From positions 1 to 25,159 of IMG/VR virus record IMGVR_UViG_3300030520_000100: a stretch of 25,159 nucleotides of DNA; one strand, 5' to 3'. The notes below the pieces were generated by a model. It did no database searches, was not told the origin of the DNA, and saw only the letters and a list, made by a program, of their open reading frames with translations. Below are positions 1 to 25,062 of this stretch, piece by piece. The DNA is from a virus. Within the stretch, counting starts at the first letter, position 1, and each line of letters opens with the position of its first letter. A program made the translations under genes and the position numbers.

Positions 1-2312
1 CCACCAATGAATCGGAAGGTTGGGCCGAGAGCGTTCGACCAAAGCCAGCTAGCAAGCCACCCGATCCCCTTGAAAGCAGGATCAAAGACGTCCTGCCAAA
101 GTGCAGTGATCAGCGGAGACAGGATGTGATAGGCGATTACGAAAGGTGTCGCCAGCAGGGTTCCAACAATAACGACCAGGAGGCGCACGCCAAAAGAGAT
201 GGCATCGAAAACCGGGGCAAGTACGTTGTGCCAGAGCCAGCCCATTACATCACCGACGGCATGGACAGCGTCCATGACCCCGTGCTCCAAGTCGCCGAAG
301 TATTTGATGACCTCGATGACAAAGAGCGCCAAGACCCCAATGGGTCCGGCGGCAAAAAGCACGTACAGATGGTCTTTGATGAAATCGAAGCCGGCACCTA
401 GGGCCGACTTGACCCAGTCAAATCCGGTCACGATCCCGGACCACACCAAGGAGGCCACATGGCCAATGTCGCCAAGGATGTCGCGGAAAGTCTTACTGTG
501 CTGGTACAGCGCAACAACGCCGATAACAGCGGCAGCTACACCCATCACGATGAGGGTGAATACGTTGGCGTCGGACAGCGCATCGAAAATCGCCATCTGG
601 ATGTTCAGCAGCATCACTGAGCTTCGCCAGATCAGGAACGCTTCGGCGATATCCGAGATGATCTTAGCCGCGATAGCGTTGTGGCCAATGGCGCCAATCG
701 CCTGAGCAATATCCAGGACCAACGGCGCGACCAGAGAGAGAATCCCCTTGGTCGCACTGAACTTTCCGAAGTTCCCTACAATGTCCTTAACCAGCGGAGC
801 CGCTGGACGGAGATCCGTGACCAGTTCAGAGATGAACTTGCGAACATCCCCAATGCCCTTGCTGACATCGGCCGCGATCGGCGCGACCATATTCTGAAGG
901 CCAGTCGATGAAGAGAATCCAGCGAAGCGGGATGACAGCGAGTTCAGCTCATTGAACACGGGCCTAAAGGCGCCAGCAGCGAACTGCGTCAAGCCGTCCT
1001 TGATGTTCGACAGGGATCCTGCGAAAGTCTTAGACTGGGCAGCCATCTCGCCACCCATTGCGCGGGTGGCGGAAGTGCCGTTCTCGATACCCTTGATCAG
1101 GATCGGCAGAGCCTGCGTCGCCATGATCTTGCCGGCAGTGATGTTCTTCGACATCTGAGTCGTAGTCTCGCCATAGCCGGCAGCAAGAATCTGGAGCGCG
1201 GGGATTCCCCGGATCTCCAGCTCCCTGAGCTGGGTTTCCATGATCTGGCCCTTGGACTGCATCTCGCCGAAAACTTGTACGACGGAATCCAGGGTCGAGC
1301 TGTTGCCGCCGATGGCGGATACGGCATCTCCAAGACCAGTGAGGTCCGGGATGATGCTTTGGGCGTTGACGCCCAAAGCAAGAAGCTCTTGAGCATCCTG
1401 GGTGAGGTCTTCGAACTGGAACGGCGTGCCCAGGCTGAAGGACTTGATCTGAGCGATCATGGCCGTAGCCTTCGACGCTGAACCAAGCAGCGTCGTAAAC
1501 GAGATCTGCGCGGTCTGCATCTCTGAGTTGAAGTCGATGACGCTCGACTTGATCGCGTCGAATGCGCTGGAGATGCCGCGCGAGATCATCGAGCCGGCAA
1601 CATAGCCGAGACCCCATGAGCCGATCGTGTACTTGAGACCAGTACCGAGTTCTTTGAACGACTCGGAAATCGCTTCTCCGCCATCATAGCCACCAGCAGA
1701 GAGAGCAGAAGAAATAAGGCCCCTGGCCTGTCCGCCAAACGACTGGACATTGGCAAGCATTCCCTGCACGCCGATAGATCCAAAAACGGATCCAAGGGAT
1801 GCAGTCGAGTCGTTGACGGTCTCGCTCAGACTCTCAGTCAGCGCCTCTCCGGCCTCACGGCCGGCCAGCGACGCCTGATATGTCAGATCGTCAGCATCGA
1901 AGAAAGACAGCTGAAAATTCTCGGCCGCAGCCTCAGTAAAATTCAGAGACAGCTGCTCGCCGGCTTCGGCGCCAGCCTCGGAAAGGGTCGATACGAGTGA
2001 GGCTGCCGCATCGGTCGCAGCACTACCAACAGAGTTGGTGATGTTCTCAGAGATGTTAGTAGCAGCATCCCCAAGAGCCTCTGTGAGGCTCCGCGAGATG
2101 GATGTGCTCATTTCCCCGGCTGCTTCAGTTGCGGCCTCTACAATGGGCGCCAGCGCCTCAGAGCCATTGACCGTGAATGCCTTGGACAGCTCGCTCTGTG
2201 CTGCCTCAGCGGCAGCCCTGACATACTTCTCGATATCCGAGACGAGTGCTGCCGTATCGCCTAGGGCCAGGTCAATATAGGCGACGCCGGCGGAGCGCGC
2301 GGAGCCAGCCAT
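1..2312 (-). CDS. Tape measure protein (5' part, runs off left edge)
   Basis: An open frame starts at the ATG at 2312, has no stop, and leaves the window after about 770 codons. GGGAGG lies just upstream and the tail assembly chaperone stop is 9 bases before the start. The first ~250 residues are rich in Ala, Ser and Glu and look helical. Residues ~264-430 match the tape measure N-terminal domain, with stretches such as FTTLLGSASKATAMI and ELEIRGIPALQILAAGYGE. Hydrophobic segments follow near residues 585-605, 648-671 and 707-729, as is common in tape measure proteins. In the family this protein sets tail length and is ejected with the DNA. The position directly after the frameshifted chaperone pair supports the call. 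The C-terminal part lies outside the window. Confidence 0.93.
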   Translation of the reverse strand, partial: MAGSARSAGVAYIDLALGDTAALVSDIEKYVRAAAEAAQSELSKAFTVNGSEALAPIVEAATEAAGEMSTSISRSLTEALGDAATNISENITNSVGSAATDAAASLVSTLSEAGAEAGEQLSLNFTEAAAENFQLSFFDADDLTYQASLAGREAGEALTESLSETVNDSTASLGSVFGSIGVQGMLANVQSFGGQARGLISSALSAGGYDGGEAISESFKELGTGLKYTIGSWGLGYVAGSMISRGISSAFDAIKSSVIDFNSEMQTAQISFTTLLGSASKATAMIAQIKSFSLGTPFQFEDLTQDAQELLALGVNAQSIIPDLTGLGDAVSAIGGNSSTLDSVVQVFGEMQSKGQIMETQLRELEIRGIPALQILAAGYGETTTQMSKNITAGKIMATQALPILIKGIENGTSATRAMGGEMAAQSKTFAGSLSNIKDGLTQFAAGAFRPVFNELNSLSSRFAGFSSSTGLQNMVAPIAADVSKGIGDVRKFISELVTDLRPAAPLVKDIVGNFGKFSATKGILSLVAPLVLDIAQAIGAIGHNAIAAKIISDIAEAFLIWRSSVMLLNIQMAIFDALSDANVFTLIVMGVAAAVIGVVALYQHSKTFRDILGDIGHVASLVWSGIVTGFDWVKSALGAGFDFIKDHLYVLFAAGPIGVLALFVIEVIKYFGDLEHGVMDAVHAVGDVMGWLWHNVLAPVFDAISFGVRLLVVIVGTLLATPFVIAYHILSPLITALWQDVFDPAFKGIGWLASWLWSNALGPTFRFIG

Positions 2313-2321
2313 GTAGCCTCC

Positions 2322-2983
2322 CTAGGACATGAGGAATCCCGCGATATCGGCGTTAGATGCTGCGGGAACAAGAACTTCGGAATCGGAAATACCTGGACGC
2401 GGGATACGCGTCGGACGCGTCGGCTTCTCCTCGCCATGGACAGAGGAGTAGGCCCACTGGATCTCTCCAAGGAGATCGACAGTGATTGCTAGCAGGTGGT
2501 CGCTCCGCGACCAGTCAGCCATCTCGCCATTCGTATCGTGCGAGAGCTGAGAATCCTGTGGAAGCCGACGGATCAAATTCAGAAGCCGTCGGCTGGACAG
2601 TGTGCCCCTGTACCAGTCGTAGATATCGACGCGGTAGTAGTGGAGGAGATCAGCTTCAATAGCCTCTGCGTGCTCGTTGATCAGCTCACAGAGGGCGAGT
2701 CTTCCCCCACGCTCGCACCAGTCTCAGAGCGCCACGCATCCAGAATCGCCCGGACATCCTGGACGGAAACCTTGTGGGCGAAAAACCGGGTCGATGCATC
2801 AACGTCGTTCATCACCGCGCTAACAATCTGCTTCAGATCATTGCCGGCATTCGCCATCGTCTCCAGCACATCAACGGGCAGTTCCGTCGGAAAGTTGAAG
2901 GTCTCGCCATCAATCACAAACTCGAACTTCTCGCCGTTCGCCTCAAGGCGCTGAGCACGGGCGGCATTAACGTCAAAAGCCAT
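2322..2983 (-). CDS. Tail assembly chaperone, -1 frameshifted long form (G-T type)
   Basis: The first 94 codons are shared with the short chaperone. A -1 slip on GGGGGAA (2708 down to 2702) then moves reading into a frame that is open to the TAG at 2322-2324, adding 126 residues for a product of about 220. I translated across the shift. The extension contains LLHYYRVDIYDWYRG and LSSRRLLNLIRRLP, then SDHLLAITVDLLGEIQWAY, a pattern typical of the second part of actinophage tail chaperones. The slip keeps P-site pairing perfect (GGG to GGG). In lambda and most siphophages the rare long form bridges tail tube subunits and the tape measure. The tape measure gene follows 9 bases after the stop. The slip efficiency cannot be read from the sequence. 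Confidence 0.88.
2681..2983 (-). CDS. Tail assembly chaperone, short form (G type)
   Basis: The 100-residue product starts MAFDVNAARAQRLEANGE and carries a compact acidic/helical region resembling the small tail assembly chaperones found between the tail tube and tape measure genes. The ATG at 2983 is preceded by AAGGGA. Its last few codons contain the slippery heptamer that produces the longer form. Upstream, between it and the tail tube gene, lie a 12-bp hairpin (3009-3040) and a minus-strand copy of the CTTGACGCTTGACA repeat (3051-3064), so its expression may be tuned separately from the tube gene. The identity rests mainly on position and the frameshift, because such chaperones are poorly conserved in sequence. 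Confidence 0.88.
   Translation of the reverse strand: MAFDVNAARAQRLEANGEKFEFVIDGETFNFPTELPVDVLETMANAGNDLKQIVSAVMNDVDASTRFFAHKVSVQDVRAILDAWRSETGASVGEDSPSVS
2702..2708 (-). promoter_or_regulatory. Slippery heptamer for -1 programmed frameshift
   Basis: Read on the minus strand, G GGG GAA sits in the chaperone zero frame, with GGG in the P site and GAA in the A site. After a one-base backward slip the P site again reads GGG and the A site reads GGA. The -1 frame stays open for 126 codons from here and gives chaperone-like sequence. No alternative start in that frame is needed. Confidence 0.8.
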
Positions 2984-3008
2984 GGTGTGTAAATCCCTTC
3001 GAGAGGAT

Positions 3009-3040
3009 GCCTGTCCCCGCCCCTCTAAGCGGGGACAGGC
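3009..3040 (-). terminator. Strong hairpin between tail tube and chaperone genes
   Basis: A perfect 12-bp inverted repeat, GCCTGTCCCCGC / GCGGGGACAGGC, with an 8-base loop. No run of T follows on the minus strand, so it is not a classic intrinsic terminator. It may instead partly terminate transcription, or protect the 3' end of the highly needed tail tube message. Confidence 0.5.
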
Positions 3041-3050
3041 CGAATATGGG

Positions 3051-3064
3051 TGTCAAGCGTCAAG
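3051..3064 (-). repeat. CTTGACGCTTGACA repeat, minus-strand copy in late operon
   Basis: An exact copy of the 14-mer found in the early region, here on the minus strand (plus strand TGTCAAGCGTCAAG), 14 bases after the tail tube stop. It points in the direction of late transcription. No actinobacterial -10 box lies 16-18 bases downstream, so it looks more like a protein-binding site than a promoter. Confidence 0.8.
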
Positions 3065-3078
3065 AAATAAGGCGGCGA

Positions 3079-3663
3079 TCAGGGAGTCATGTTCGGGTCG
3101 TTGGTGTACCAGTAAACGAGAGGCGTCACGCCGTCGAGTCCCATCGCGTTGTACGTGATGCCAAGAGCCGCACTCTTGTCGCGAGTCAGGTTGATATCGG
3201 TGGTGTCGGTCACCTGACCACGCGGAATGATGATTCGGGTAGTGATAGCGCCGTTGTTGTCGGTCCACTCAATCCCAAGTGTCCGCTCGAAAGAGACAAG
3301 CGTCTCGGAGATGGTGTACAGGTATCCGCTGGCGCCATTGGTGGCGACAGCGCCACCACCGGCCCACAGGGGCAGCGTGATGGCATTCATCTGCACGAGG
3401 CTGAACTTCGCGGTCATTGCCCGACTCTTCGGCACGTAGCGACCGGGAACGGTCGTCTGCCAGAGATCGATCTCATCCCAGCTGTCCTTCTTGCCAAGGA
3501 CCACGCCAGTGTCATCGGTGAAGCCGAGATCCTGCCACAGGGCAGAAACACTGGCCCAGGAAGCCACAACGTCAGTGGGGGCCGGAGTGCCCACGGGAGC
3601 AATATAGAGGTGGCCCTGTCCGGCCACTCGAATCTGTGAAGTCTGCTGGCCAGTAGCGGCCAT
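3079..3663 (-). CDS. Major tail tube protein
   Basis: The 194-residue protein starts at an ATG 6 bases after a strong GGAGG. It begins MAATGQQTSQIRVAGQGHLY and has the mixed beta-rich, Gly/Thr-rich composition of siphophage tail tube subunits. The segment HLYIAPVGTPAPTDV is typical of the N-terminal strand and loop region in actinophage tube proteins. It lies between the tail terminator-like gene and the tail assembly chaperone, the conserved place for the tube. It polymerises as rings around the tape measure to form the flexible tail. The hairpin immediately downstream is consistent with a need for high expression. Confidence 0.85.
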   Translation of the reverse strand: MAATGQQTSQIRVAGQGHLYIAPVGTPAPTDVVASWASVSALWQDLGFTDDTGVVLGKKDSWDEIDLWQTTVPGRYVPKSRAMTAKFSLVQMNAITLPLWAGGGAVATNGASGYLYTISETLVSFERTLGIEWTDNNGAITTRIIIPRGQVTDTTDINLTRDKSAALGITYNAMGLDGVTPLVYWYTNDPNMTP

Positions 3664-3673
3664 GTTGCCTCCT

Positions 3674-4093
3674 TTAGGCGTGCACCATGACCGATATCTG
3701 AGTCAGATAACGGCCGGCATTTGGGTAATCTTCTTCGTCAAACCACTGCGGGCCAACGTCTTCATTGACCGATGTGACACACGCACCGAAGGACGAGAGA
3801 TCGGCAAAGCGGATATCGAACGCCAGTGCACGACGTACGATCCGCGTGAGATTGAATGCCGTGGCCTTATCTGGGCCGAAGCAGTCGATGTCTAGTCGGG
3901 GGTTGTCAGACCACATGAGAAAATCGGTGGATCCGCCAAGACGAACCACACGGACCACGGATTGAGAACCGTTGTAATCAGTCGGGACTCTCGTCCCGAT
4001 CTGGACGCCGGCCAGAGCCGGCAGCGTCAACAGCCACTGAACGATGACTTCTTCGATGTCTGGCAGATCGGCAGGTTCAATCAGGCCGATCAC
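3674..4093 (-). CDS. Tail terminator / tail completion protein
   Basis: A 139-residue protein starting at a GTG whose first bases overlap the previous stop (GTGA). It opens with an acidic helix and VIVQWLLTLPALAGVQIGTRVP, then a beta strand region (SVVRVVRLGGSTDF), a pattern seen in tail-terminator and minor-tail-completion proteins (lambda gpU/HK97 gp10-neighbour class). It stands directly before the tail tube gene, the usual place. In the family it caps the tail tube and joins it to the head connector. The call rests on pattern and position; no catalytic motif is expected. Confidence 0.68.
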   Translation of the reverse strand: MIGLIEPADLPDIEEVIVQWLLTLPALAGVQIGTRVPTDYNGSQSVVRVVRLGGSTDFLMWSDNPRLDIDCFGPDKATAFNLTRIVRRALAFDIRFADLSSFGACVTSVNEDVGPQWFDEEDYPNAGRYLTQISVMVHA

Positions 4094-4488
4094 CTCCTGA
4101 CACGGTCAGCCCATTCCCGGATGTTCTTCTCGACGGCACGCTTGTTGCGTCGCTTCTCGGCGACTTCGCCGTTATGGACAGCGGCTGTCTGCCACTTGCC
4201 AATAGCTCGACCGAGTACACGGTGCGGAGCGTCCTTCGCTGTGCCGAACTCAATTGAGTAGGCAGCAGGATCGTCAGACCACACGCGGTAGTAGGGCCGT
4301 CCGTTGGATGCCCTAAATACGGCGCCCCGAAGGGAGGCCTGAAATTGCCCTGTCCTGTTGTACTGCCCCGCGATTTCGCGGGCAGACGTGAGGACCGATT
4401 CCCCCATCTCATCGAACATGTCGATCAGCTCAGGCGACTCGAACAGCTCTTCTTTGATCCAGTCCGGATCGAACGAGAAGCTAGCCAC
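4090..4488 (-). CDS. HK97 gp10-like neck / minor head protein
   Basis: A 132-residue protein with a long N-terminal helix, then SLRGAVFRASNGRPYYRVWSDDPAAYSIEFGTAK, the characteristic strand-turn-strand with a final E-F/Y-G-T that is seen in gp10-like (DUF-type) neck proteins. The C-terminus is highly basic (RRNKRAVEKNIREWADRVRR). The GTG start at 4488 lies inside the end of the preceding head closure gene and its TGA overlaps the next GTG, so translational coupling is likely. It probably forms part of the head-tail joining region. The exact position in the neck cannot be told from sequence. Confidence 0.7.
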   Translation of the reverse strand: MASFSFDPDWIKEELFESPELIDMFDEMGESVLTSAREIAGQYNRTGQFQASLRGAVFRASNGRPYYRVWSDDPAAYSIEFGTAKDAPHRVLGRAIGKWQTAAVHNGEVAEKRRNKRAVEKNIREWADRVRR

Positions 4489-4822
4489 TGAACCTCTTAA
4501 TCCGACACTCGATGTGATGGATACCGAATCCCGGTCGGGGGACCGGAGCCGGAATGCCGTAAACCTGATAGGTCACGCCATTGATGATGAGCCGATCCGT
4601 ACCAAGGACATCGGTGCCAGCCGGCAGGAAAGCATTGCCGTCGGATTCGAGAGCGTCCCGGTTGGTCTCTTGCTCACCCATCCGTCTCTGATTGGTGTCC
4701 AGCCATCCGGAGACAGTTGTCTCCGTGGTGTTGGACCAGTCGATGCCAGGATTGTTGTACTTGTCCACGGTGAAGCCGGCGCGCTGAATGATGATGGGCA
4801 CCGTAAAGATGTTCTCTAGCAT
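4481..4822 (-). CDS. Head closure / head-tail stopper protein
   Basis: A 113-residue, beta-rich protein of the size and gene position of siphophage head-tail stoppers (SPP1 gp16-like class). The C-terminal segment DRLIINGVTYQVYGIPAPV followed by HHIECRIKR is typical of this small barrel fold, in which a strand-turn ends with a short conserved xxYxVxG. Its ATG overlaps the TGA of the adaptor gene by one base. In the family it seals the portal channel after packaging and provides the surface for tail docking. Confidence 0.68.
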   Translation of the reverse strand: MLENIFTVPIIIQRAGFTVDKYNNPGIDWSNTTETTVSGWLDTNQRRMGEQETNRDALESDGNAFLPAGTDVLGTDRLIINGVTYQVYGIPAPVPRPGFGIHHIECRIKRFSG

Positions 4823-5463
4823 CAGCGGAATTCAATCGTGCGGTTCTTGCGAGCGCAGAAAGGCTTCAGGACTTCTTCATCATCGGAAGTCATAGAGATG
4901 GCTGCCAGTGGCACGCCATCGGCCATGCGATACGAGTAGCCGCCGATCGTCTCTCCCACAACGCCAGGAGAACCAGGCGCCAAAAGAACGCGCATCACCA
5001 TCGTCGCGCAGACGCCAACCACCTTGTCTGGAATGACCGAATAGCCATGGGTGTACGTCACTAGATAGGTGACGTTCCGCCAAAACCAGTCGTTGTCTAC
5101 CCAAAACTCGGGAGCATTGATTACCGCCGATGGCGGACCAAGCATGATGGTCTGAGCGCCATCCCAAGTGAAGATCGAGTAGGGCATGTAGCTATTGCCG
5201 CTAGGATCTACTCGCGCAAGAGCATCAACGCTAATGGCGGGCCGCTGCGGCAAAATGATCTGGTTGTCCACCGGGGCAATGACCTCGGCAGTCTGGATCA
5301 AGTTGAAGGTCTGTTTGGTGAAGGACCGGATCCGTTCAGAGGCGTCTGTCAGAAGAAACGCTGACCGCGTCTGCTCTGCGGACGTCAACGGTCGAGGCAT
5401 TCGGTTGGCCACATCGGTAACAGTGGCCAGTGCGGGCAGAGATGGAGGAGTCGGAATCGTCAC
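4822..5463 (-). CDS. Head-tail connector / adaptor protein (gp6-like)
   Basis: A 213-residue protein. I choose the GTG at 5463 because it overlaps the glycosyltransferase stop (GTGA) and has GGTGGAG just upstream; a GTG at 5484 is possible. The N-terminus contains a helical region with TSAEQTRSAFLLTDASERIRSFTKQTF, which is characteristic of head-tail connectors (an ASERIR helix). The middle is beta-rich, with TYLVTYTHGYSVIPDKV and then VCATMVMRVLLAPG, a common pattern in actinophage connectors. It probably docks under the portal and recruits the stopper encoded next. Confidence 0.8.
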   Translation of the reverse strand: MTIPTPPSLPALATVTDVANRMPRPLTSAEQTRSAFLLTDASERIRSFTKQTFNLIQTAEVIAPVDNQIILPQRPAISVDALARVDPSGNSYMPYSIFTWDGAQTIMLGPPSAVINAPEFWVDNDWFWRNVTYLVTYTHGYSVIPDKVVGVCATMVMRVLLAPGSPGVVGETIGGYSYRMADGVPLAAISMTSDDEEVLKPFCARKNRTIEFR

Positions 5464-6431
5464 GCTGTCTCCACCATGAAGCACCAGTGATTCAGGTCCG
5501 CATCGCGGACCAGATCAAGTTCTTTGGATCGCTTCAGTGCGCGGCGCGACGCGCCATTCCACACGCGCCCATCAGACAGCCTCTCAATGGCCGTCTGCCA
5601 GCCGTCCAGATCATCCCTGGATACATACGTGCCAGCGTCGCCCAGAGCCTCTGTGAGGCCGTTTGTGGGATTCGCAATCACCGGGATGCCGGAGGCCATA
5701 GCTTCCACCCCGACACGTCCCCAGGACTCATAGACGCTCGGCATCAGCAGGATCCGAGTCTGGCGATAGACACGGCTCATGCCATGCGGATCGACATGAT
5801 TCACAATCGTCACGTTCGGAAGATACTCAATGATCTGGTCGCCATGAGCGCCGACCACGCCGAGAAACTGTGTCTCAGACATGCGTCGAGCCAGCTCATA
5901 GAAAACGTGAGCACCCTTGTCCGCATTCAGATTGATCAGCGTGACCTTAGTACCCGGCTTCGTCCGGTACTCGTCCGCATTGATCGGCGGACGCACCACC
6001 AGCCAGTCAGGGACGGGCTGATACTCCTGAAGCTCATCCCTGAGCCATTCAGAGTTATAGACCTGATAGACATCTGATGCGCCGGACCAGGCGCGCGTGT
6101 TGTCGAAATCGTTGTGATTCACAACAAAAACCGGCTTGTGCATCCATCGCGCGAGCACAACGGCTCGCGCAGTATTCTCCAGATGCGTTACGACAACATC
6201 GCACTTAGGCATCAGATCAATCGGATCCTCCTTATCCCGGAAGGGATGGACTCGGATACCGTCGATCGTGTAGCCGTCATGCCGGTAAGAGGCGTTGAGC
6301 GGGGCGCGAGATTCCAGAACGTCAACCTCGTGCCCGCGCTCGACCAGTGCGCGGAGCATCGTGTGAAGCATTACCTCCGCACCACCATTGTGGTGCGGGA
6401 CATACCAATGGACCATCGCGAGAACGCGCAC
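5460..6431 (-). CDS. Glycosyltransferase, GT-B fold (GT4-like), inside the head operon
   Basis: A 323-residue protein with a GTG start and AGGAGG 7 bases upstream. The N-terminus has HNGGAEVMLHTMLRALVERG, the usual sugar-acceptor domain opening of GT4 enzymes. A second domain carries LLMPSVYESWGRVGVEAM, containing the E-x7-E motif that holds the nucleotide sugar, followed by SGIPVIANPTNGLTEAL. A middle segment, NLNADKGAHVFYELA, matches the donor-domain start. There is no signal peptide, so it should act in the cytoplasm. It lies between the major capsid and connector genes and is expressed with them, so a structural protein such as the capsid is a plausible acceptor. The sugar and the acceptor are inference. 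Confidence 0.9.
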   Translation of the reverse strand: MRVLAMVHWYVPHHNGGAEVMLHTMLRALVERGHEVDVLESRAPLNASYRHDGYTIDGIRVHPFRDKEDPIDLMPKCDVVVTHLENTARAVVLARWMHKPVFVVNHNDFDNTRAWSGASDVYQVYNSEWLRDELQEYQPVPDWLVVRPPINADEYRTKPGTKVTLINLNADKGAHVFYELARRMSETQFLGVVGAHGDQIIEYLPNVTIVNHVDPHGMSRVYRQTRILLMPSVYESWGRVGVEAMASGIPVIANPTNGLTEALGDAGTYVSRDDLDGWQTAIERLSDGRVWNGASRRALKRSKELDLVRDADLNHWCFMVETA

Positions 6432-6444
6432 TGGATACCTCCTA

Positions 6445-7464
6445 TCAGGTCAGCTCAGCAACCGGGGCCATCACCGAGAACGGGAAGTAAGTCCCGCGCT
6501 TCTGACCCAGGGCAGTAACAGGGTTGGCCGTCGCAAAACCCAGGCGCATAACGCACCGAAGAGCAACGGAGTCCTGCTGCATCAGGTTCAGGACAATATT
6601 GCCGGAGCCATCCTGAATCACACCATCGGTGTGCATCGTGAAAGTGATGTCCTGCCGCATACCGATGATTGCGTTGTCCCACTGGCCAGCAATCAGGCTG
6701 GCAGTCTGCGGATTGAAGGCGCCGTTCTTAGCCTCACTGGTAGAGAACCCATAGAGATTCCCGCCGGGAGTGCCATCAGTATTAGGCTGATAAATCGGCA
6801 GACCCTGCGGAGAACGGTACCCCGCGAGAGTCCAGCCAAAGCCAGGCGCAGTCGCAAACCCATCGATGCTGTAGCCCTGCTTAACCAGCTGGGCGCCCAT
6901 CTGAGTAATGGCCACACCGAGATCCGGCCCATTAGCACCAGACGCAGTAGCGGGAGTGATCGTGTTGCCGGCCGCAATGGCGGCAGTGTAGATATCGGTA
7001 GACCAAGTGGCCGGACGATTCACGCCGAAAAGGCATGCCCCATCGATAGCGATACCCAGAGCCTCAACAATCCTAGGCCGCACCTCGGCCCAGATATCGA
7101 CCTGAGCGTCATCAAGGTATGCCTGCGGAATCGGCACGATCACAGCAAGCTCTTCGGCAATCAGCGAAACATTCTTCCACTGCTGCTGAGTCGTGCTCTT
7201 GAGGTTGTAGTCACCAGCACCAGGAGTGCTAGAAGCATTCAGAAAGTATGCCTGCGGCAGCACGGAAAGGACCGGCTGGCGCTGAGTCAGCGCCGACATA
7301 GTCACCTTGCGTGCACGTGCAAGGGCAACCGATGCGGTAGGCAGTTCCTGAATGATCTGGGCGGATACCGGAGTCGGGACCAGGGGCTCGCCCCCGGCCG
7401 GCGACCCGGCATTACGATAAAGGCCAGAACCATACTGGCCACCCGAGAAGGGGTTAGTAGTCAA
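6445..7464 (-). CDS. Major capsid protein (HK97 fold)
   Basis: A 339-residue protein with a TTG start preceded by GGAGG at 5 bases. It contains the features of HK97-like capsid proteins: an N-arm, then a region with KVTMSALTQRQPVLSVLPQA, an E-loop/P-domain section with WKNVSLIAEELAVIVPIP and YLDDAQVDIWAEVRPRIVEALG, and a C-terminal strand TFTMHTDGVIQDGSGN then LMQQDSVALRCVMRLGFA. The scaffold gene lies immediately upstream. The start codon is odd for what should be the most abundant protein; the strong ribosome site may compensate. A perfect 8-bp hairpin followed by TT lies between scaffold and capsid. Confidence 0.93.
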   Translation of the reverse strand: MTTNPFSGGQYGSGLYRNAGSPAGGEPLVPTPVSAQIIQELPTASVALARARKVTMSALTQRQPVLSVLPQAYFLNASSTPGAGDYNLKSTTQQQWKNVSLIAEELAVIVPIPQAYLDDAQVDIWAEVRPRIVEALGIAIDGACLFGVNRPATWSTDIYTAAIAAGNTITPATASGANGPDLGVAITQMGAQLVKQGYSIDGFATAPGFGWTLAGYRSPQGLPIYQPNTDGTPGGNLYGFSTSEAKNGAFNPQTASLIAGQWDNAIIGMRQDITFTMHTDGVIQDGSGNIVLNLMQQDSVALRCVMRLGFATANPVTALGQKRGTYFPFSVMAPVAELT

Positions 7465-12413: not shown

Positions 12414-14276
12414 TCAGCCGTAGTACCTCAGAACGTCACCAGCAGGGATGACAGGAATGCCGGACGCTGCAAGCGCCGTAATGAACGTCTGGAAATCAGC
12501 CACAGTCATCTGAGTCGAAGACGACGGAGTACCCGTGGTGAAGTCGTGCATCGTGTAGATGCCCCACAGCTGATTCGCCTTGATGTGGGGCAGATCCGTA
12601 GCCGTGATCGTGCTGACCGGATAGTTCCCCGCAAAGCTGCCGATGGCAGACTGAGCGCGAAGCCGGTAGGGATCAGCTGGCGGAAAAGTTTCATATGTCT
12701 TGCGCGTGATGGTCCTGGCATATCTGTTGTACTTCTTGATGATCGACGTAGTCGAAACGCCATCGGTCGTCAGACCGTACTGACCAAGCGGATATGCCGT
12801 ACCGTCCATGCCTCTGAGGCCATTGACGATCTCCCACGCCTTCATCAGCCGCAGATCATTATCAAGCTGTGCAGCAGTCATGCCCGTGTAGGTCAAAGCG
12901 TGGTCCGCATCGAGGTACGCGTGACTCCCGACTTCCCAGCCATACTTCTGAAGGTCGTCCAGATTCTGGAGACTCATCCGGCCGCTAGAGCCGATCAGAG
13001 ACTGAATCAGATACACGCTGGCACGCATGCCAGCGGCCTGAAGGATCGGGAACGCATACTGGTACATCGAGTAGTAGGCGTCATCGAAGCCGATCGACAC
13101 AACGCCATTCGGAAAGATCGCGGAAGCATCAGGGATGATCTCGAAATCTTGAAAGTGACACTTGACCCCGGTCCCAAGCCCGTCATCCTGAATCGTGAAC
13201 TGGAGATCGGTCAGAGACGTCCTGGACGGAGAGCCCGACGTTGTAGCGTCGGCAAAGTGAAGCGTGACCGTGTACCAGCCACCTCCGTTGCCTCCAGTGC
13301 CACCAGAAGGAATGAAGTTCGAGCCAGCAGGCGCCTGCTGCGGAATCCACTCGTAGTAGTTCGCGAGACTGGACGACCCGTACAGGACTTCCAGATGCGT
13401 CAAGTGCGTGATGTCATCGATCTTGACCCTGAAGCGAATCATCTGGCCGGTAGTATTCACGGCCGGCATGCCGACCTTCTTGATCTTTGCTAGACCACCG
13501 GCACCATCGGTGACGATGTTGCACGACTGGCCGAACAGGAAATCGGTCGTATCGTTGGCTGTGAAAGTTCCCGTCCCGGCCGAAGAGAATCCATGACCGG
13601 ACTGGAACTGAGTCACGATCGCCGTAGGAGGCACATACTGCGGAAGCTTGGCCGTAGGAGGCATATAGACACCAGGAACCTGAGCCACGGTTACCATGCC
13701 CGTAGAGTCAAGCGACGCCACGCCAGAAGCGGCGCCAACCTCGCTGAGGGGCACGTAAGTAGTGGCTGCCGCAGTTGCCACAGCGGCAGCGGCGTTGATG
13801 GCGTCATATCGAGCGTCAGCCGCAGCCTGAGTGATGCCGTCAAGGGCAGCAGTTGGCAGCTGGCTAACCGGTACCAGACCGCTGCCGTCGAGTGCCGCAT
13901 AGCCATTCGGCTGCCCCTTGGCAGCCACCAGCTGATACGTCGTACTCGGCACCAGGGTGGAAGCCGGCGCAATATCCGACAGGTTGACTGTCGGGACGAG
14001 GTACGAAAACTGGACACTATAGGTGCGCGGAGACGCGCCAGTGATATTCTCGGTGACGTTGTAGACGACGCCCGAAGGTGTCGTGCCAGGGTCATCGATT
14101 GCAGCGGCCTGAAAGGTCGCCTGACCAGAGGCCAGCGTCAGAGTCAGTGGAATGGTCGAGATCGTCTCGCCAGCATTGGACATCGCCACTGACGGAGTCA
14201 GCGTGATAGAGCCGGCAGCAGGATCCCCGTTCATCGTCTCGTATCGAGCCGTGACAGTGACCATCGTAAAACTCAT
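12414..14276 (-). CDS. Tail-fibre-like protein with NodB polysaccharide deacetylase domain
   Basis: A 620-residue protein. Residues ~1-115 form a beta-rich region. Around 120-210 are fibre-type repeats such as NGYAALDGSGLVPVSQLPT and GVASLDSTGMVTVAQVPG. A carbohydrate-binding-like beta region lies at ~230-385. The C-terminus (~390-620) is a polysaccharide deacetylase domain: VVSIGFDDAYYS (D398, D399), GWEVGSHAYLDADH (H452, H459) and a final IPVIPAGDVLRYYG. The family removes acetyl groups from cell-wall sugars or capsules. The second histidine is 7 residues after the first, rather than the more usual 4, so metal binding is uncertain. No signal peptide is seen. Its place before the terminase, not after the tape measure, is unusual for a receptor-binding protein. 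Confidence 0.83.
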   Translation of the reverse strand: MSFTMVTVTARYETMNGDPAAGSITLTPSVAMSNAGETISTIPLTLTLASGQATFQAAAIDDPGTTPSGVVYNVTENITGASPRTYSVQFSYLVPTVNLSDIAPASTLVPSTTYQLVAAKGQPNGYAALDGSGLVPVSQLPTAALDGITQAAADARYDAINAAAAVATAAATTYVPLSEVGAASGVASLDSTGMVTVAQVPGVYMPPTAKLPQYVPPTAIVTQFQSGHGFSSAGTGTFTANDTTDFLFGQSCNIVTDGAGGLAKIKKVGMPAVNTTGQMIRFRVKIDDITHLTHLEVLYGSSSLANYYEWIPQQAPAGSNFIPSGGTGGNGGGWYTVTLHFADATTSGSPSRTSLTDLQFTIQDDGLGTGVKCHFQDFEIIPDASAIFPNGVVSIGFDDAYYSMYQYAFPILQAAGMRASVYLIQSLIGSSGRMSLQNLDDLQKYGWEVGSHAYLDADHALTYTGMTAAQLDNDLRLMKAWEIVNGLRGMDGTAYPLGQYGLTTDGVSTTSIIKKYNRYARTITRKTYETFPPADPYRLRAQSAIGSFAGNYPVSTITATDLPHIKANQLWGIYTMHDFTTGTPSSSTQMTVADFQTFITALAASGIPVIPAGDVLRYYG

Positions 14277-14598: not shown

Positions 14599-14906
14599 TG
14601 CGCCCCCAATCGCTCATAGTGCCCAGACCCGTACACAATGCGAGACGCAGGTTCGCCCCGATGAAATAGATGCAGGTCAGGGGGTCCACCCCCTACCGGG
14701 GCTGGTGGATCGCCATCCGATAGACCACCCTGAGTCACGAAGGCACTGAGACCGGTCTTAAGTCACGGCACTCCGTGCCGGAGTGGTATAGTCGTGACCG
14801 GATTGATTGTTCCCGCCTGTCGGCGACGCAATGAGATGATCAGTCCATGGGTGATGACTAGTTGGACTCAGATCCCCAGTGTTGCTGCACTGGGGATCAC
14901 TCATGT
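14599..14906. other. Non-coding gap between HNH gene and late block; possible cos region
   Basis: No convincing gene on either strand. It holds a G5/C5 hairpin (AGGGGG TCCA CCCCCT, 14679-14694), a perfect 10-bp palindrome AGACCGGTCT (14749-14758), a small hairpin CGGCAC TCC GTGCCG near 14767, and an 11-bp inverted repeat at the HNH 3' side. HNH endonucleases next to terminase genes often flank cos, so this gap is the best place in the window for a cohesive-end site. No cut site can be assigned from sequence alone. Confidence 0.4.
14871..14898. repeat. Perfect 11-bp inverted repeat downstream of HNH gene
   Basis: GATCCCCAGTG and CACTGGGGATC with a 6-base loop. It lies 9 bases past the HNH stop on the minus strand. 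There is no T run on either side, so a Rho-independent terminator is not supported; it may be an RNA end-stabilising hairpin or a protein site. Confidence 0.7.
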
Positions 14907-15212
14907 CTAGAGCAATCCGGGATGTGCCGGCTTCGGCCGGCGGATACTCTCGCGTCGCCTGTTGGGCGACTGATTGCCTTCAGCACTGGACTTGCGTGCG
15001 TGATGCCAGTTGCACAGCGATCGCAGATTGTTCAATGAATGGTTATTGCCATGCACGATGTGATCTACATCTGTTGCACGCTGTGCACATCGAACGTAAT
15101 CGTCAACGTGTGTGCATTGATATCCATCGCGTAGCAACACGACTTGTCGCAGCTGTTTCCAGTTGCTTGGTAGTTCATTGACGCGATTGCTGTTCTTCCA
15201 TCCATCACCCAT
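14907..15212 (-). CDS. HNH endonuclease
   Basis: A 101-residue protein from the ATG at 15212, which has AAAGGAAG 8 bases upstream; a longer frame from 15254 would overlap the tRNA-like element. The core RDGYQCTHVDDYVRCAQRAT, TDVDHIVHGNNHSL, LRSLCNWHHARKS contains the H-N-H metal/catalytic residues with flanking Cys and His pairs likely to bind zinc. Small HNH proteins beside the terminase genes take part in cohesive-end cutting and packaging in many actinophages and HK97-type phages. Here it is the first protein gene of the leftward block. A homing endonuclease role is the main alternative. Confidence 0.9.
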   Translation of the reverse strand: MGDGWKNSNRVNELPSNWKQLRQVVLLRDGYQCTHVDDYVRCAQRATDVDHIVHGNNHSLNNLRSLCNWHHARKSSAEGNQSPNRRRESIRRPKPAHPGLL

Positions 15213-15245
15213 TGTGGAGTCTTCCTTTCTGGTGATGGTTATTTG

Positions 15246-15317
15246 TTGACTCAACAGGATTCGAACCTGCTACCTGCGATCCATTATCGCTGCGCTACCA
15301 TTTACGCTATTGAGTCA
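15246..15317 (-). tRNA. tRNA-like element with shortened anticodon arm (probable pseudo-tRNA)
   Basis: On the minus strand TGACTCA pairs perfectly with TGAGTCA as acceptor stem, extendable to 8 bp with the next A-T. D-arm GCGT/GCGC encloses a canonical loop with A14, GG and A21. The T-arm has TTCGAAT closed by CAGG/CCTG, and the variable region is AGGTA. The anticodon arm is only 15 bases instead of 17: either 5 bp with a 5-base loop (AATGG) or 4 bp with loop TAATGGA, where position 33 is A instead of T. No anticodon can be assigned safely. CCA is not encoded. Its end lies 33 bases before the HNH start. Confidence 0.75.
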
Positions 15318-15440
15318 AAGACCATAGCCGCAAGGACTATGGTGTATTTCATAATGCCGATTAGTGCCGTAGGACAATCGGCAGCAATGAACGAAGCTGG
15401 CACAGATCGATATTTCCGCTACCAAGAACTTCGCAGTTAA

Positions 15441-15561
15441 TTTCCGGTCACCAGGAATCAATCTGAATCGCCATTAAGGCATTGCGCCATCCTTGACAGA
15501 AGCCGGGAGCACTTCGGCTTCGCCTTAACCGGTGACGAGAGATTCAACCGATGACCGGAAA
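15441..15561. ncRNA. Nested four-helix element, possible structured RNA
   Basis: Four helices nest inside each other: 15441-15450 TTTCCGGTCA with 15552-15561 (10 bp), 15464-15469 TGAATC with 15541-15546 (6 bp), 15474-15480 TTAAGGC with 15522-15528 (7 bp), and 15499-15505 GAAGCCG with 15515-15521 (7 bp). The last two are directly adjacent on the 3' side and could stack. The strand cannot be decided. No known RNA family is recognised. Confidence 0.45.
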
Positions 15562-15601
15562 ACTCGTGTTCGCGCTCGTGCGCGATAATCGTCAATTATT
15601 A

Positions 15602-15627
15602 GCGATTCGCCTTCAAAGGCGAATCGC
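15602..15627. repeat. Perfect 12-bp inverted repeat
   Basis: GCGATTCGCCTT and AAGGCGAATCGC meet around a central CA, giving a long stem with a small terminal loop. Neither side has a clear T run. Confidence 0.7.
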
Positions 15628-15654
15628 ATCAATCAATATCTATCATCATCAGTA

Positions 15655-15682
15655 AGAGACTTCCCTCTACGGGGAAGTCTCT
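15655..15682. terminator. 11-bp hairpin, possible bidirectional terminator
   Basis: AGAGACTTCCC and GGGAAGTCTCT form a perfect stem with loop TCTACG, next to an AT-rich stretch on the plus side (ATATATAAG). It lies between divergent gene blocks. The lack of a clean T tract keeps confidence low for intrinsic termination. Confidence 0.4.
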
Positions 15683-15834
15683 ATATATAAGAGAGAGATA
15701 TTTATTTATCAGGCGCGCGAGGCGCCTGTAGGACTTGCTCTCACCCTGCTTAGTGATGTCACTGGAGTCGGTATGGGACATCATCATGATGTGACGTGCA
15801 TCACACAGTCCCTGACCTGCGATGATGGATGTTT

Positions 15835-15871
15835 CTTGACGCTTGACAGGCATGCTGACGCATGCCAAACT
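15835..15871 (+). promoter_or_regulatory. Early promoter with repeat and inverted-repeat operator
   Basis: The exact repeat CTTGACGCTTGACA (15835-15848) ends in a consensus -35 TTGACA (15843-15848). A perfect 7-bp inverted repeat GGCATGC TGAC GCATGCC (15849-15866) fills the spacer, and CAAACT (15866-15871) is a weak -10 at 17 bases. The predicted transcription start is about 15878, the A of the first gene's ATG. Confidence 0.6.
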
Positions 15872-15883
15872 TGACGCATGACA
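15870..15883 (+). repeat. Repeat variant CTTGACGCATGACA containing a start codon
   Basis: One mismatch from the 14-mer repeat. The changed base creates the ATG (15878-15880) of the first early gene, so the repeat and the start codon overlap. Confidence 0.7.
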
Positions 15884-16186
15884 GCAGCCGTGCAAGTTGA
15901 GGCGATAGCCAGAGAGCTTGGTCTCAAGATCGATCGTGTGAACTATCGTGATGGCGAATACAGCCTCACGTTCTGGCCGAAGTATCGGCACCGGCTAACG
16001 AGCAACTACGCGTTGCAATACGACTCGATCAATGGACGATTCACCACGTCCAACGGAATTCGACTGACCAGCGATCAAGCCGCAGCATATGTTGCCGCAT
16101 GTCCAACGCACGAAGACCCGAATCCTTGGCTCGTGATGGAGCAATGCGGAATCGACCCTTGGAATAACTGGCGTCACTTCCAATAG
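15878..16186 (+). CDS. Hypothetical early protein, probable leaderless start
   Basis: A 102-residue protein, first gene of the rightward block. It begins MTAAVQVEAIARELGLKIDR and ends WLVMEQCGIDPWNNWRHFQ. The middle (YSLTFWPKYRHRL, YALQYDSINGRF) suggests alternating strands; no membrane segment or known motif is seen and I do not recognise the family. No ribosome binding site precedes the ATG. The upstream promoter would start the transcript at or next to the ATG, so translation is probably leaderless, as is common in Actinobacteria. The ATG sits inside a variant of the 14-mer repeat. Confidence 0.75.
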   Translation: MTAAVQVEAIARELGLKIDRVNYRDGEYSLTFWPKYRHRLTSNYALQYDSINGRFTTSNGIRLTSDQAAAYVAACPTHEDPNPWLVMEQCGIDPWNNWRHFQ

Positions 16187-16190
16187 TCGA

Positions 16191-16206
16191 AACGCGCGAA
16201 AGCGCG
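16191..16206 (+). repeat. Hairpin with GAAA tetraloop after the first early gene
   Basis: ACGCGC GAAA GCGCGT (about 16191-16206): a 6-bp GC stem closed by a GNRA-type tetraloop on the plus strand, the direction of transcription. A second 6-bp repeat TGCCAG/CTGGCA follows at about 16209-16230. No T run, so more likely a stability or pause hairpin. Confidence 0.5.
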
Positions 16207-16216
16207 TCTGCCAGAA

Positions 16217-16245
16217 TTGACCTACTGGCACTGATGAGACAGGTT
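16217..16245 (+). promoter_or_regulatory. Possible promoter for small early genes
   Basis: TTGACC (16217-16222), 17-base spacer, then CAGGTT (16240-16245), a partial match to the actinobacterial TAGRRT -10. It precedes the 40-residue gene by 12 bases. Weak evidence. Confidence 0.35.
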
Positions 16246-16256
16246 AGGGAGAAATC

Positions 16257-17370: not shown

Positions 17371-17571
17371 GTGACAGAGTGGGGCGTGTTCAACGACGAA
17401 GGCGTAACGGACATCTTCAACAAGATCGAAGATGCCGAAGCGCAAGCGCTGATCTACAAGACCGAAGATGACGGCTACTATGCCGAACTGATCTCCGTCA
17501 AGGAGATGTGCCCGGATCATGAAGAGCAGCCGAAAGACGGCTGTGAAGAGTGCTTCGCTGAGTACGACTAG
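17371..17571 (+). CDS. Small acidic protein with C-terminal Cys cluster
   Basis: A 66-residue protein. I prefer the GTG at 17371, which has GAGGG 8-9 bases upstream and lies after the previous stop; an in-frame ATG at 17356 would overlap it. The N-terminus reads MTEWGVFNDEGVTDIFNKIE and the C-terminus contains MCPDHEEQPKDGCEECFAE, in which C-x-x-H and C-x-x-C could form a small zinc site. Phage proteins of this WGVF...EEC type are common but uncharacterised. Confidence 0.72.
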   Translation: MTEWGVFNDEGVTDIFNKIEDAEAQALIYKTEDDGYYAELISVKEMCPDHEEQPKDGCEECFAEYD

Positions 17572-23124: not shown

Positions 23125-25062
23125 ATGCCTAGTCTAACCATGCCCGTGGCCACTGGTGTGCTTAGGGCCGTTGACTACAATCGGGTCTCCACCGAAGAGC
23201 AGCGCAAGGGTTATGGCATTGCTGCCGGCCTGCGCAAGTCTGCCTCCTTCATCACCCGCAAGGGCTGGGACCATGTAGGCACTTACAAGGATGAGGGTCT
23301 GTCTGGATCCTTGGAGATGGGCTCCCGAGCGGACTTCGATCGTCTCATGCTCGACGCGAAGACGATCGACACCTTTGGCAGGCGTGCCTTTGATGTGGTG
23401 GTGGTACCCAAGGGCGACCGCATCGGCCGTACCGGCCGCGCCTTTTGGCGTTGGGTATGGGCACTTGAAGACATCGGTATCTTCGTTGCCCTAGTAGACA
23501 AAGACTGCGACAATACGACTCAAGCCGGGCGTTCCGAGTTTCGCAAATCTGCGGACTATGCCGAGACCGAATGGGAAACGATCCGCTCTCGAACTCAAGA
23601 CGGCCTTCAAGAGAAGGCCTATGCTGGCGGCTGGATCGGCGGCCCACCACCTTTCGGCTATGAGATCGAGAATCAGGGCAAGCGTGGTGAATCTCACCTG
23701 ATCGTTTGCGATAGGGAAGCCCTCATGGTTCGGATTGTCGTAAAGGCCCTCCAGGAAGGCGACAGTCTGAACGATGCCGCGATCATCCTCAACATGGAAG
23801 AGCAGTTCACTCGATCGGGCAGGCCCTGGGGACGTGAGAATCTGCGTCACCAGATATTCTCTGACGCAATCCTTAACGGATACGTCATCTTTAGGAACAC
23901 AGCCGTCAATGCGAAGGCTGGTCCCGATGGCGAGCCGCTATACGGCCCATCGGTGAAGATCCCAGTCCCTCAGTTCCTGACCGATGATGAGGTTGCCTAC
24001 CTGCGAGAATGGCAGATGCGGTCACGGAAGCCCAAGCGCCGTGCTGATGCCACTTACCCTCTGTCTCTGCGCCTGATCGGCATGTGCGGCAAGCACTATA
24101 GTGGCCAGGGGCGGTCAGAATCTGGATACATTCGCGGCTATCGATGCTCCGGAAAGAATCAGTCTTATCCGGGCGCCCCTACTTGCAACGATCATAACAT
24201 CGATGCCAGCACCCTCGAAAAGGCCGTGTGGGATCTCCTCTGCACGAAGCTCGGCGATCGTGACAAGCTTGAGGAAATTTCGGCTGAATGGCTGAGCCTT
24301 GCCGGAGAAGGATTCGAGATGCACGAATCCCGGATTTCCGACCTTGAGTCGGCAATCAAGCGACAGAATTCCGTCATCAGCACGACTGTGGTGAGCCTTG
24401 CAAGGCTTGGACAAAGTGAAGAAGAGATCGCTGTGGCCGTACGGCCACTCAATGAAGAACTTGAGCAGATCCAAAAGATGAAGGCTGATGCCGAGGCGTG
24501 GTTCAAGGAACGGGAGGATGGCGCGCAGCGCGGGCGGGATCTTGCTGCCTTGGCGCAGATGGCGCAGGAAAGGCTTGGGGACGAGTCTCTAGAAACTCAG
24601 GCGCGCTTCCTGGACCTACTAGACGTACGCGTGCACATCCTGTCTCCTGTACCGATTCTGGCCGGCGGTCATCCCTGCACGGTGGCCGGCTGGTACGAAG
24701 AGCGGAAGCGAGGTGTCCCGATGGAGCTGACAGACGATCAGTGGGCGCGTGTGGCGCCCCTAGTGGGCTCTACAGACGCGCTGAGAAGGCGCGTCAACGC
24801 CGTACTTCACAAGGCTCGTTCGCGCTGCCGTTGGGCCGATCTGCCGTCGGAGTACGGCTCGCCAAACACGGCGCGCCGGGCATGGACTCAATGGTCAACG
24901 GGCCTGTGGGCGCAGGTGGATCAGGTTCTTGATGATGCCGAGAGGAGTGACTTCGTGCCTACGATGCGCCCGCTGCCAGACTTTGAGCTGCGCGTAGATG
25001 TGGACCCCCGCATCTTGGTAGTCGCGGAACCATCCCGAAGGCGATGGTCACCAGTGGGTTGA
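23125..25062 (+). CDS. int: Large serine integrase with extra IS5-transposase-like C-terminal domain
   Basis: A 645-residue site-specific recombinase with AAGGAG upstream of its ATG. The catalytic domain has YNRVSTEEQ with nucleophile S22 and GDRIGRTGRAF with the conserved arginines. A recombinase domain follows (~175-300), then a Cys-containing zinc-ribbon region (~318-360) and a long coiled coil (~390-470). From about residue 533 (24721) the sequence MELTDDQWARVAPLVG, RRRVNAVLHKARSRCRWADL and ARRAWTQWSTGLWAQVDQVL resembles the DUF4096 N-terminal region of IS5-type transposases. The frame crosses the attachment junction near 25030, so its last ~8-10 residues come from host DNA; the free phage would encode a different end. 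Confidence 0.95.
   Translation: MPSLTMPVATGVLRAVDYNRVSTEEQRKGYGIAAGLRKSASFITRKGWDHVGTYKDEGLSGSLEMGSRADFDRLMLDAKTIDTFGRRAFDVVVVPKGDRIGRTGRAFWRWVWALEDIGIFVALVDKDCDNTTQAGRSEFRKSADYAETEWETIRSRTQDGLQEKAYAGGWIGGPPPFGYEIENQGKRGESHLIVCDREALMVRIVVKALQEGDSLNDAAIILNMEEQFTRSGRPWGRENLRHQIFSDAILNGYVIFRNTAVNAKAGPDGEPLYGPSVKIPVPQFLTDDEVAYLREWQMRSRKPKRRADATYPLSLRLIGMCGKHYSGQGRSESGYIRGYRCSGKNQSYPGAPTCNDHNIDASTLEKAVWDLLCTKLGDRDKLEEISAEWLSLAGEGFEMHESRISDLESAIKRQNSVISTTVVSLARLGQSEEEIAVAVRPLNEELEQIQKMKADAEAWFKEREDGAQRGRDLAALAQMAQERLGDESLETQARFLDLLDVRVHILSPVPILAGGHPCTVAGWYEERKRGVPMELTDDQWARVAPLVGSTDALRRRVNAVLHKARSRCRWADLPSEYGSPNTARRAWTQWSTGLWAQVDQVLDDAERSDFVPTMRPLPDFELRVDVDPRILVVAEPSRRRWSPVG
25010..25060. other. 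Prophage attachment junction (attL/attR half-site)
   Basis: Minus-strand RarD similarity from the window edge ends at about 25031 (IAFGM), and the codons that follow in that frame no longer fit the family. GC content also falls here. The crossover core therefore lies near 25025-25037, within the 3' end of the integrase frame, the usual place next to a serine integrase gene. The core bases cannot be fixed without the other junction or an empty site. Confidence 0.7.

Follow-up and report, generated by a model that had tools for sequence, protein, structure and literature searches.

Several described phage RNAs invite comparison with the locus presented here. The late leader of lambda (the pR'-tR' 6S RNA) precedes the late genes, and its transcription may stop at terminators as long as no antiterminator is at work. 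The put RNA of HK022 and the nut sites of lambda are hairpins in phage leaders, lying upstream of genes that are transcribed by read-through. There are also antisense small RNAs whose C-rich loops target Shine-Dalgarno sequences. Finally, GOLLD and ROOL are structured RNAs of phages and prophages, often found near tRNA genes, and without known function (PMC12286853).

The element of interest, a predicted RNA domain capped by the loop of a helix that we call P3, can be set beside each of these. Like GOLLD and ROOL, it is phage-borne and lies near a same-strand tRNA gene (in the window and in relatives L017–L021). However, GOLLD and ROOL are much larger, with many GOLLD members exceeding 800 nt (the core of our element spans ~60–170 nt), and both are in Rfam, whereas our element matches neither: their covariance models gave no match up to an E value of 5 in the window or in the L018 and L019 regions. 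As with lambda pR'-tR', the element is placed in a presumptive leader ahead of late genes; it differs in that here a covarying RNA domain follows putative terminators, and is itself followed by a tRNA. The likeness to HK022 put and lambda nut is one of arrangement—terminator-like hairpins occur in the same putative leader—but the late position, the size, and the fixed P3 loop of the element are not put-like. Lastly, the element shares a CUCC loop on a stable stem with the C-rich-loop antisense RNAs; strong complementarity to a target was seen in L017 and L018 only.

The stretch of viral DNA analysed (hereafter, the window) is 25,159 nt long, and the same phage was found at 100% identity in contigs other than its IMG/VR record. 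A gap at positions 15318–15877 separates leftward genes (a tRNA at 15245–15317, HNH endonuclease, tail protein, terminase, portal, and capsid) from rightward genes (small early genes, a DnaE-type polymerase, and a serine integrase). The gap is AT-richer (GC 0.49 at 15001–16000), and the open reading frames that overlap it have no positional counterpart in the relatives. The tRNA, on the minus strand and downstream of the element, is predicted to be tRNA-His, with the unusual anticodon ATG. Two of the flanking proteins have noteworthy domains: a tail-fibre-like protein (12414–14276, minus) carries a polysaccharide deacetylase domain, and the serine integrase ORF (23125–25062, plus) has a C-terminal match to DUF4096 (IS4/5-type transposase) at residues 535–597.

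Searches with the polymerase and terminase identified a clade at ~75–84% protein identity, one member of which is a prophage in Kitasatospora mediocidica KCTC 9733. The element was recovered in seven distinct copies: that of the window, and those of L017, L018, L019, L020, L021, and L049 (the L017 and L049 elements are 93% alike). The polymerases of the element-bearing relatives are, where present, ~75–77% identical to that of the window. The same-strand tRNAs of L017–L021 differ in identity (Met, Met, Asn, Ser, and Met, respectively), and in L021 a leftward open reading frame (4607–5389) separates the element from the tRNA.

The earlier note had drawn attention to inverted repeats packed into the divergent region. 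Counting perfect hairpins with loops of 2–16 nt and stems no shorter than 7 bp, we find eight in the gap, compared with 1.9 per 560 bases in the rest of the window. Comparison with shuffled sequences shows that the gap as a whole folds strongly (z −7.7 on plus, −8.1 on minus), as does the nested element at 15441–15561 (z −3.8 on plus, −4.8 on minus), whose order had rightly been judged to exceed chance. In a sliding scan, the most extreme stretch of the window was 15601–15760 (z −8.4 and −7.8; window mean −1.1, standard deviation 1.4). The second strongest predicted structure lies at 17401–17560 on the minus strand (z −6.1); another, at 14761–14920 (z −5.4 on plus), is near an 80-base stretch (14613–14693) that is 78–83% identical in L017, L018, and L048.

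Read on the minus strand, the nested element forms a core domain, P1-P2-P3 (15441–15561), followed by a further hairpin, P4. P1 (15548–15561 with 15441–15454) is 14 bp long including G-U pairs, and 13–14 bp across copies; it pairs UUCCGGUCAYYGG with CYGGUGACCGGAA, and shows two compensatory pairs in L019. P1 is followed by a UU bulge (15546–15547, lengthened in L017 and L018), P2 (GAGUC/GAUUC; 15541–15545 with 15455–15459), an internal loop, and P3. In the window, a 7 bp helix specific to this copy (15522–15528 with 15474–15480) precedes the 7 bp P3 (15515–15521 with 15499–15505). Of the four nested helices of 10, 6, 7, and 7 bp reported previously, all are real and three have the lengths given (the 10 bp one being a perfect helix within P1, 15441–15450/15552–15561); the second, P2, is 5 bp long. 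P3 varies in length and sequence among copies, and is capped by a near-invariant loop, AAGUGCUCC (15506–15514), which contains CUCC. Loop variants are AAAUGCUCC in L017 and L049, CAGUGCUCC in L019, and a shortened form in L020. P4 (15392–15433) lies 3' of P1; all five pairs of its outer stem (15429–15433 with 15392–15396) show changes on both sides, while its inner stems are weaker, and in L018 the fitted alignment places a different hairpin at this position. A candidate pseudoknot between the loop CUCC and a GGAG in P4 was dropped because the GGAG is found only in L018, L019, and L020.

A covariance model, R1, was built from six sequences with trimmed linkers (whole-sequence MAFFT misaligned the variable P3), leaving out L020, and was then checked on untrimmed sequences. 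R1 recovers all seven untrimmed copies at 62–101 bits; the match to the out-of-seed L020 scores 62 bits (E 1.3e-10 in ~1 Mb). In the fitted alignment of the seven copies, pairing holds in 92.4% of cells, and base changes on both sides are seen in 11 of 38 pairs; these counts are flattered by fitting the alignment to the structure, and draw on only seven distinct sequences. The covariation score is 0.281, compared with 0.143 for shuffles (0/500 as high) and at most 0.082 for controls in which the pairing partner was slid. RNAalifold recovers the helices unprompted. Free of the structure-fitting bias are the L020 match and the unaided single-sequence folds, in which all six whole copies adopt the same shape. 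These results show that a predicted leftward RNA domain, composed of P1, the UU bulge, P2, a variable P3, and P4, is kept with one architecture and at the same place in seven phages; the structured RNA suspected from the window sequence is supported by covariation in relatives and by the out-of-seed match.

The domain is accompanied by smaller hairpins on both sides. Between P4 and the tRNA, the minus strand of the window carries two (15355–15383 and 15321–15343; together spanning 15321–15383), and each relative has one or two of different sequence. On the 5' side, in the direction of the RNA, the relatives keep the order of a GATGTCC dyad, a GGCGC hairpin, hairpins Hb and Ha, a small GCGCG hairpin, and P1. 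The dyad of the window (TGATGTC...GACATCA, 15754–15783), a putative operator or 5' hairpin, appears in relatives as GATGTCC...GGACA, with arms that co-change in L019. Hc (CAGGCGC-CTCGC-GCGCCTG, 15710–15728) has a similar GGCGC hairpin in L017, L018, and L019, and a near-match in L020. Hb (11 bp, 15655–15682) and Ha (12 bp, 15602–15627) are perfect hairpins without strand preference and possible terminators; both stand in the same place in relatives (for Ha, in L017, L018, L019, and L020) with different arm sequences. The small hairpin just 5' of P1 (TCGCGC-ACGA-GCGCGA, 15570–15585, minus), of the CGCGCGAGAGCGCG type, occupies the same position in four of five aligned copies and is shorter in L020. 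Spacing of the 5' hairpins is similar among relatives, even as the arm sequences of Ha and Hb turn over completely; L021 differs here. Consensus folding gave no strand signal for the hairpins 5' of P1, which may either belong to the RNA or act as terminators in both directions.

Just ahead of the dyad on the minus strand lies a GCAGGTCA motif (15806–15813), invariant in five aligned relatives, which we infer to be a candidate part of a leftward promoter. Neither a consensus promoter nor a U-tailed terminator could be identified. Sites of the TTGACGCTTGACA type are dispersed in the early intergenic stretches of the window (15840, 16836, 20925, and 21053 on plus; 3050 on minus), and also occur in L017, L018, L020, and L021. 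Each phage has its own bases ahead of CGCTTGACA or ACGCTTGACA, the same throughout its sites (ACTTGACGCTTGACA in the window, ACGCAACGCTTGACA in L017/L018, GCTTAACGCTTGACA in L020/L021). The TTGACGCTTGACA-type sites may be promoter −35 boxes or immunity-specific operators.

Several explanations other than a minus-strand RNA can be weighed against these observations. A plus-strand RNA, such as an antisense RNA or an early leader ending at Ha/Hb, could draw on the good folding of that strand (z −3.8 for the element, −7.7 for the gap) and on the T-rich DNA that follows Hb on plus in some relatives (L018, L017). However, non-Watson-Crick cells read on minus comprise 26 G-U and 3 A-C, in 12 and 2 pairs respectively, and although this count used pairs chosen on minus, RNAalifold treats the strands alike and returns a consensus energy of −74.9 kcal/mol on minus versus −55.0 on plus, some 20 kcal/mol worse. 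The P2 G-U of six of the seven copies becomes an A-C mismatch on plus, where R1 matches reach no more than 19.8 bits, and a plus-strand RNA is very improbable. The G-U bias and consensus energy favour leftward reading of the RNA, in the direction of the tRNA and structural genes. The same one-sidedness of P1–P4 speaks against a purely DNA-level element (inverted repeats between divergent promoters, serving as operators, as terminators for both directions, or as a replication origin), because duplex DNA requires neither feature. Such an element would accommodate the perfect dyads of Ha and Hb, with their complete sequence turnover and lack of strand preference, as well as the conserved dyad and repeated TTGACGCTTGACA sites alongside; as an account without RNA function we consider it improbable. 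A control hub for divergent transcription, as once proposed for the region, is possible for the flanking hairpins and dyad, but the strand bias of the nested element points to a minus-strand RNA. There is a negligible chance that the region is a decayed tRNA cluster: a tRNA does sit alongside, and in L019 another tRNA match (6357–6461) falls between element and tRNA-Asn, but Rfam and ARAGORN detect no tRNA in the window besides that at 15245–15317, and the element is a long irregular hairpin rather than a cloverleaf, with helices that covary and are conserved, not decaying. Chance hairpins can be dismissed with similar assurance; the gap is AT-richer and single hairpins are scattered all over the window, yet here they number fourfold the expectation, with z of about −8 and one architecture in seven phages. 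We conclude that a structured RNA is very probably made from the minus strand.

A further proposal concerns what this RNA might do: the P3 loop and arm (GUGCUCCC) could pair in trans with the Shine-Dalgarno sequences (GGGAG) of early mRNAs, shutting them off late in infection. The near-invariance of a CUCC-containing loop on a varying stem fits with this. In L018, the 5' arm of P2-P3 is exactly complementary over 13 nt to an early ribosome-binding site (5502–5514, plus), and in L017 an exact 11 nt complementarity (5542–5552, plus) falls at the same early gene, ahead of the hammerhead; in both phages the ribosome-binding site of that gene is the best duplex genome-wide. However, the best target in the other four genomes is not a ribosome-binding site, L017 and L018 are close and so count about once, the match was found post hoc, and any CUCC loop can pair with GGAG. 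We therefore treat the complementarity as a lead and not as evidence, and regard antisense action as rather unlikely.

To return to the minus-strand RNA itself, it is probably, with some reservation, the 5' leader of a leftward transcript in which, judging by gene order, the tRNA is followed by the HNH and structural genes. The best reading is this leader, or a non-coding RNA that tRNA processing would release from the same tRNA/late transcript. Transcription would start near the GATGTCC dyad, pass the putative terminators Hb and Ha, and continue through the P1–P4 domain. The role of RNase P in tRNA maturation is established, and this function, together with gene order, suggests that maturation would cut the leader at ~15318, freeing a non-coding RNA of several hundred nucleotides. 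That the loop hardly changes while its stems do suggests recognition by a partner. The P3 loop may be presented to RNA polymerase or an antiterminator, controlling the late operon in the manner of put or nut, or alternatively to another protein or to the ribosome-binding sites of mRNAs. Control of the late operon in cis is put forward tentatively. It is doubtful that the several-hundred-nucleotide RNA, once separated by tRNA processing, represents a new class of phage non-coding RNA whose P3 loop acts in trans, with early mRNAs or the transcription machinery as its target, and so drives these Streptomycetaceae phages from early to late expression.

A single clade of Streptomycetaceae phages accounts for all copies of the element that were found. 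Genome searches gave matches in 2 of 396 Streptomycetaceae, 2 of 70 members of the genus, and 1 of 395 members of the class. Across all of IMG/VR, six stretches, every one within the clade, matched a pattern of the P2/P1 3' arm. R1 returned nothing comparable in more distant relatives or among chance pattern matches, and a nucleotide search of annotated phages and plasmids matched a short piece of an HNH gene, but not the element. With all 4227 families of Rfam 15, at gathering and loose thresholds, the window matched only tRNA and hammerhead, and at the loose threshold only tRNA stood above gathering in the L018 and L019 regions. The hammerhead, a known class beside the gap (PMC3088659), is of type II (RF02276, 41.1 bits; 16185–16248, plus) and lies between the first two rightward genes; it recurs at a similar place in L017, L018, and L020 (55, 52, and 58 bits), and was not found in L019 or L021. 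Streptomyces phage Celia has six type II hammerheads in the 4.6 kb upstream of its polymerase gene (962–5573, plus), none of which is annotated in that stretch of its GenBank feature table. A literature search found no paper describing the RNA of the gap. The earlier reading of the element as an undescribed structured RNA is largely right. It matches no Rfam family, and can be classed as a family not described before, narrowly distributed, within the familiar category of structured phage RNAs that lie beside a tRNA.

This work adds a covariation-supported, undescribed RNA family to the phages of Streptomyces-type bacteria. A loop that stays almost identical while its stems change freely points to a recognition site, whose partner can be sought directly, and K. 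mediocidica KCTC 9733 provides a named host with a prophage copy in which expression and deletion are testable. If the element governs late transcription, it would offer a handle on the early-to-late gene switch in these phages.
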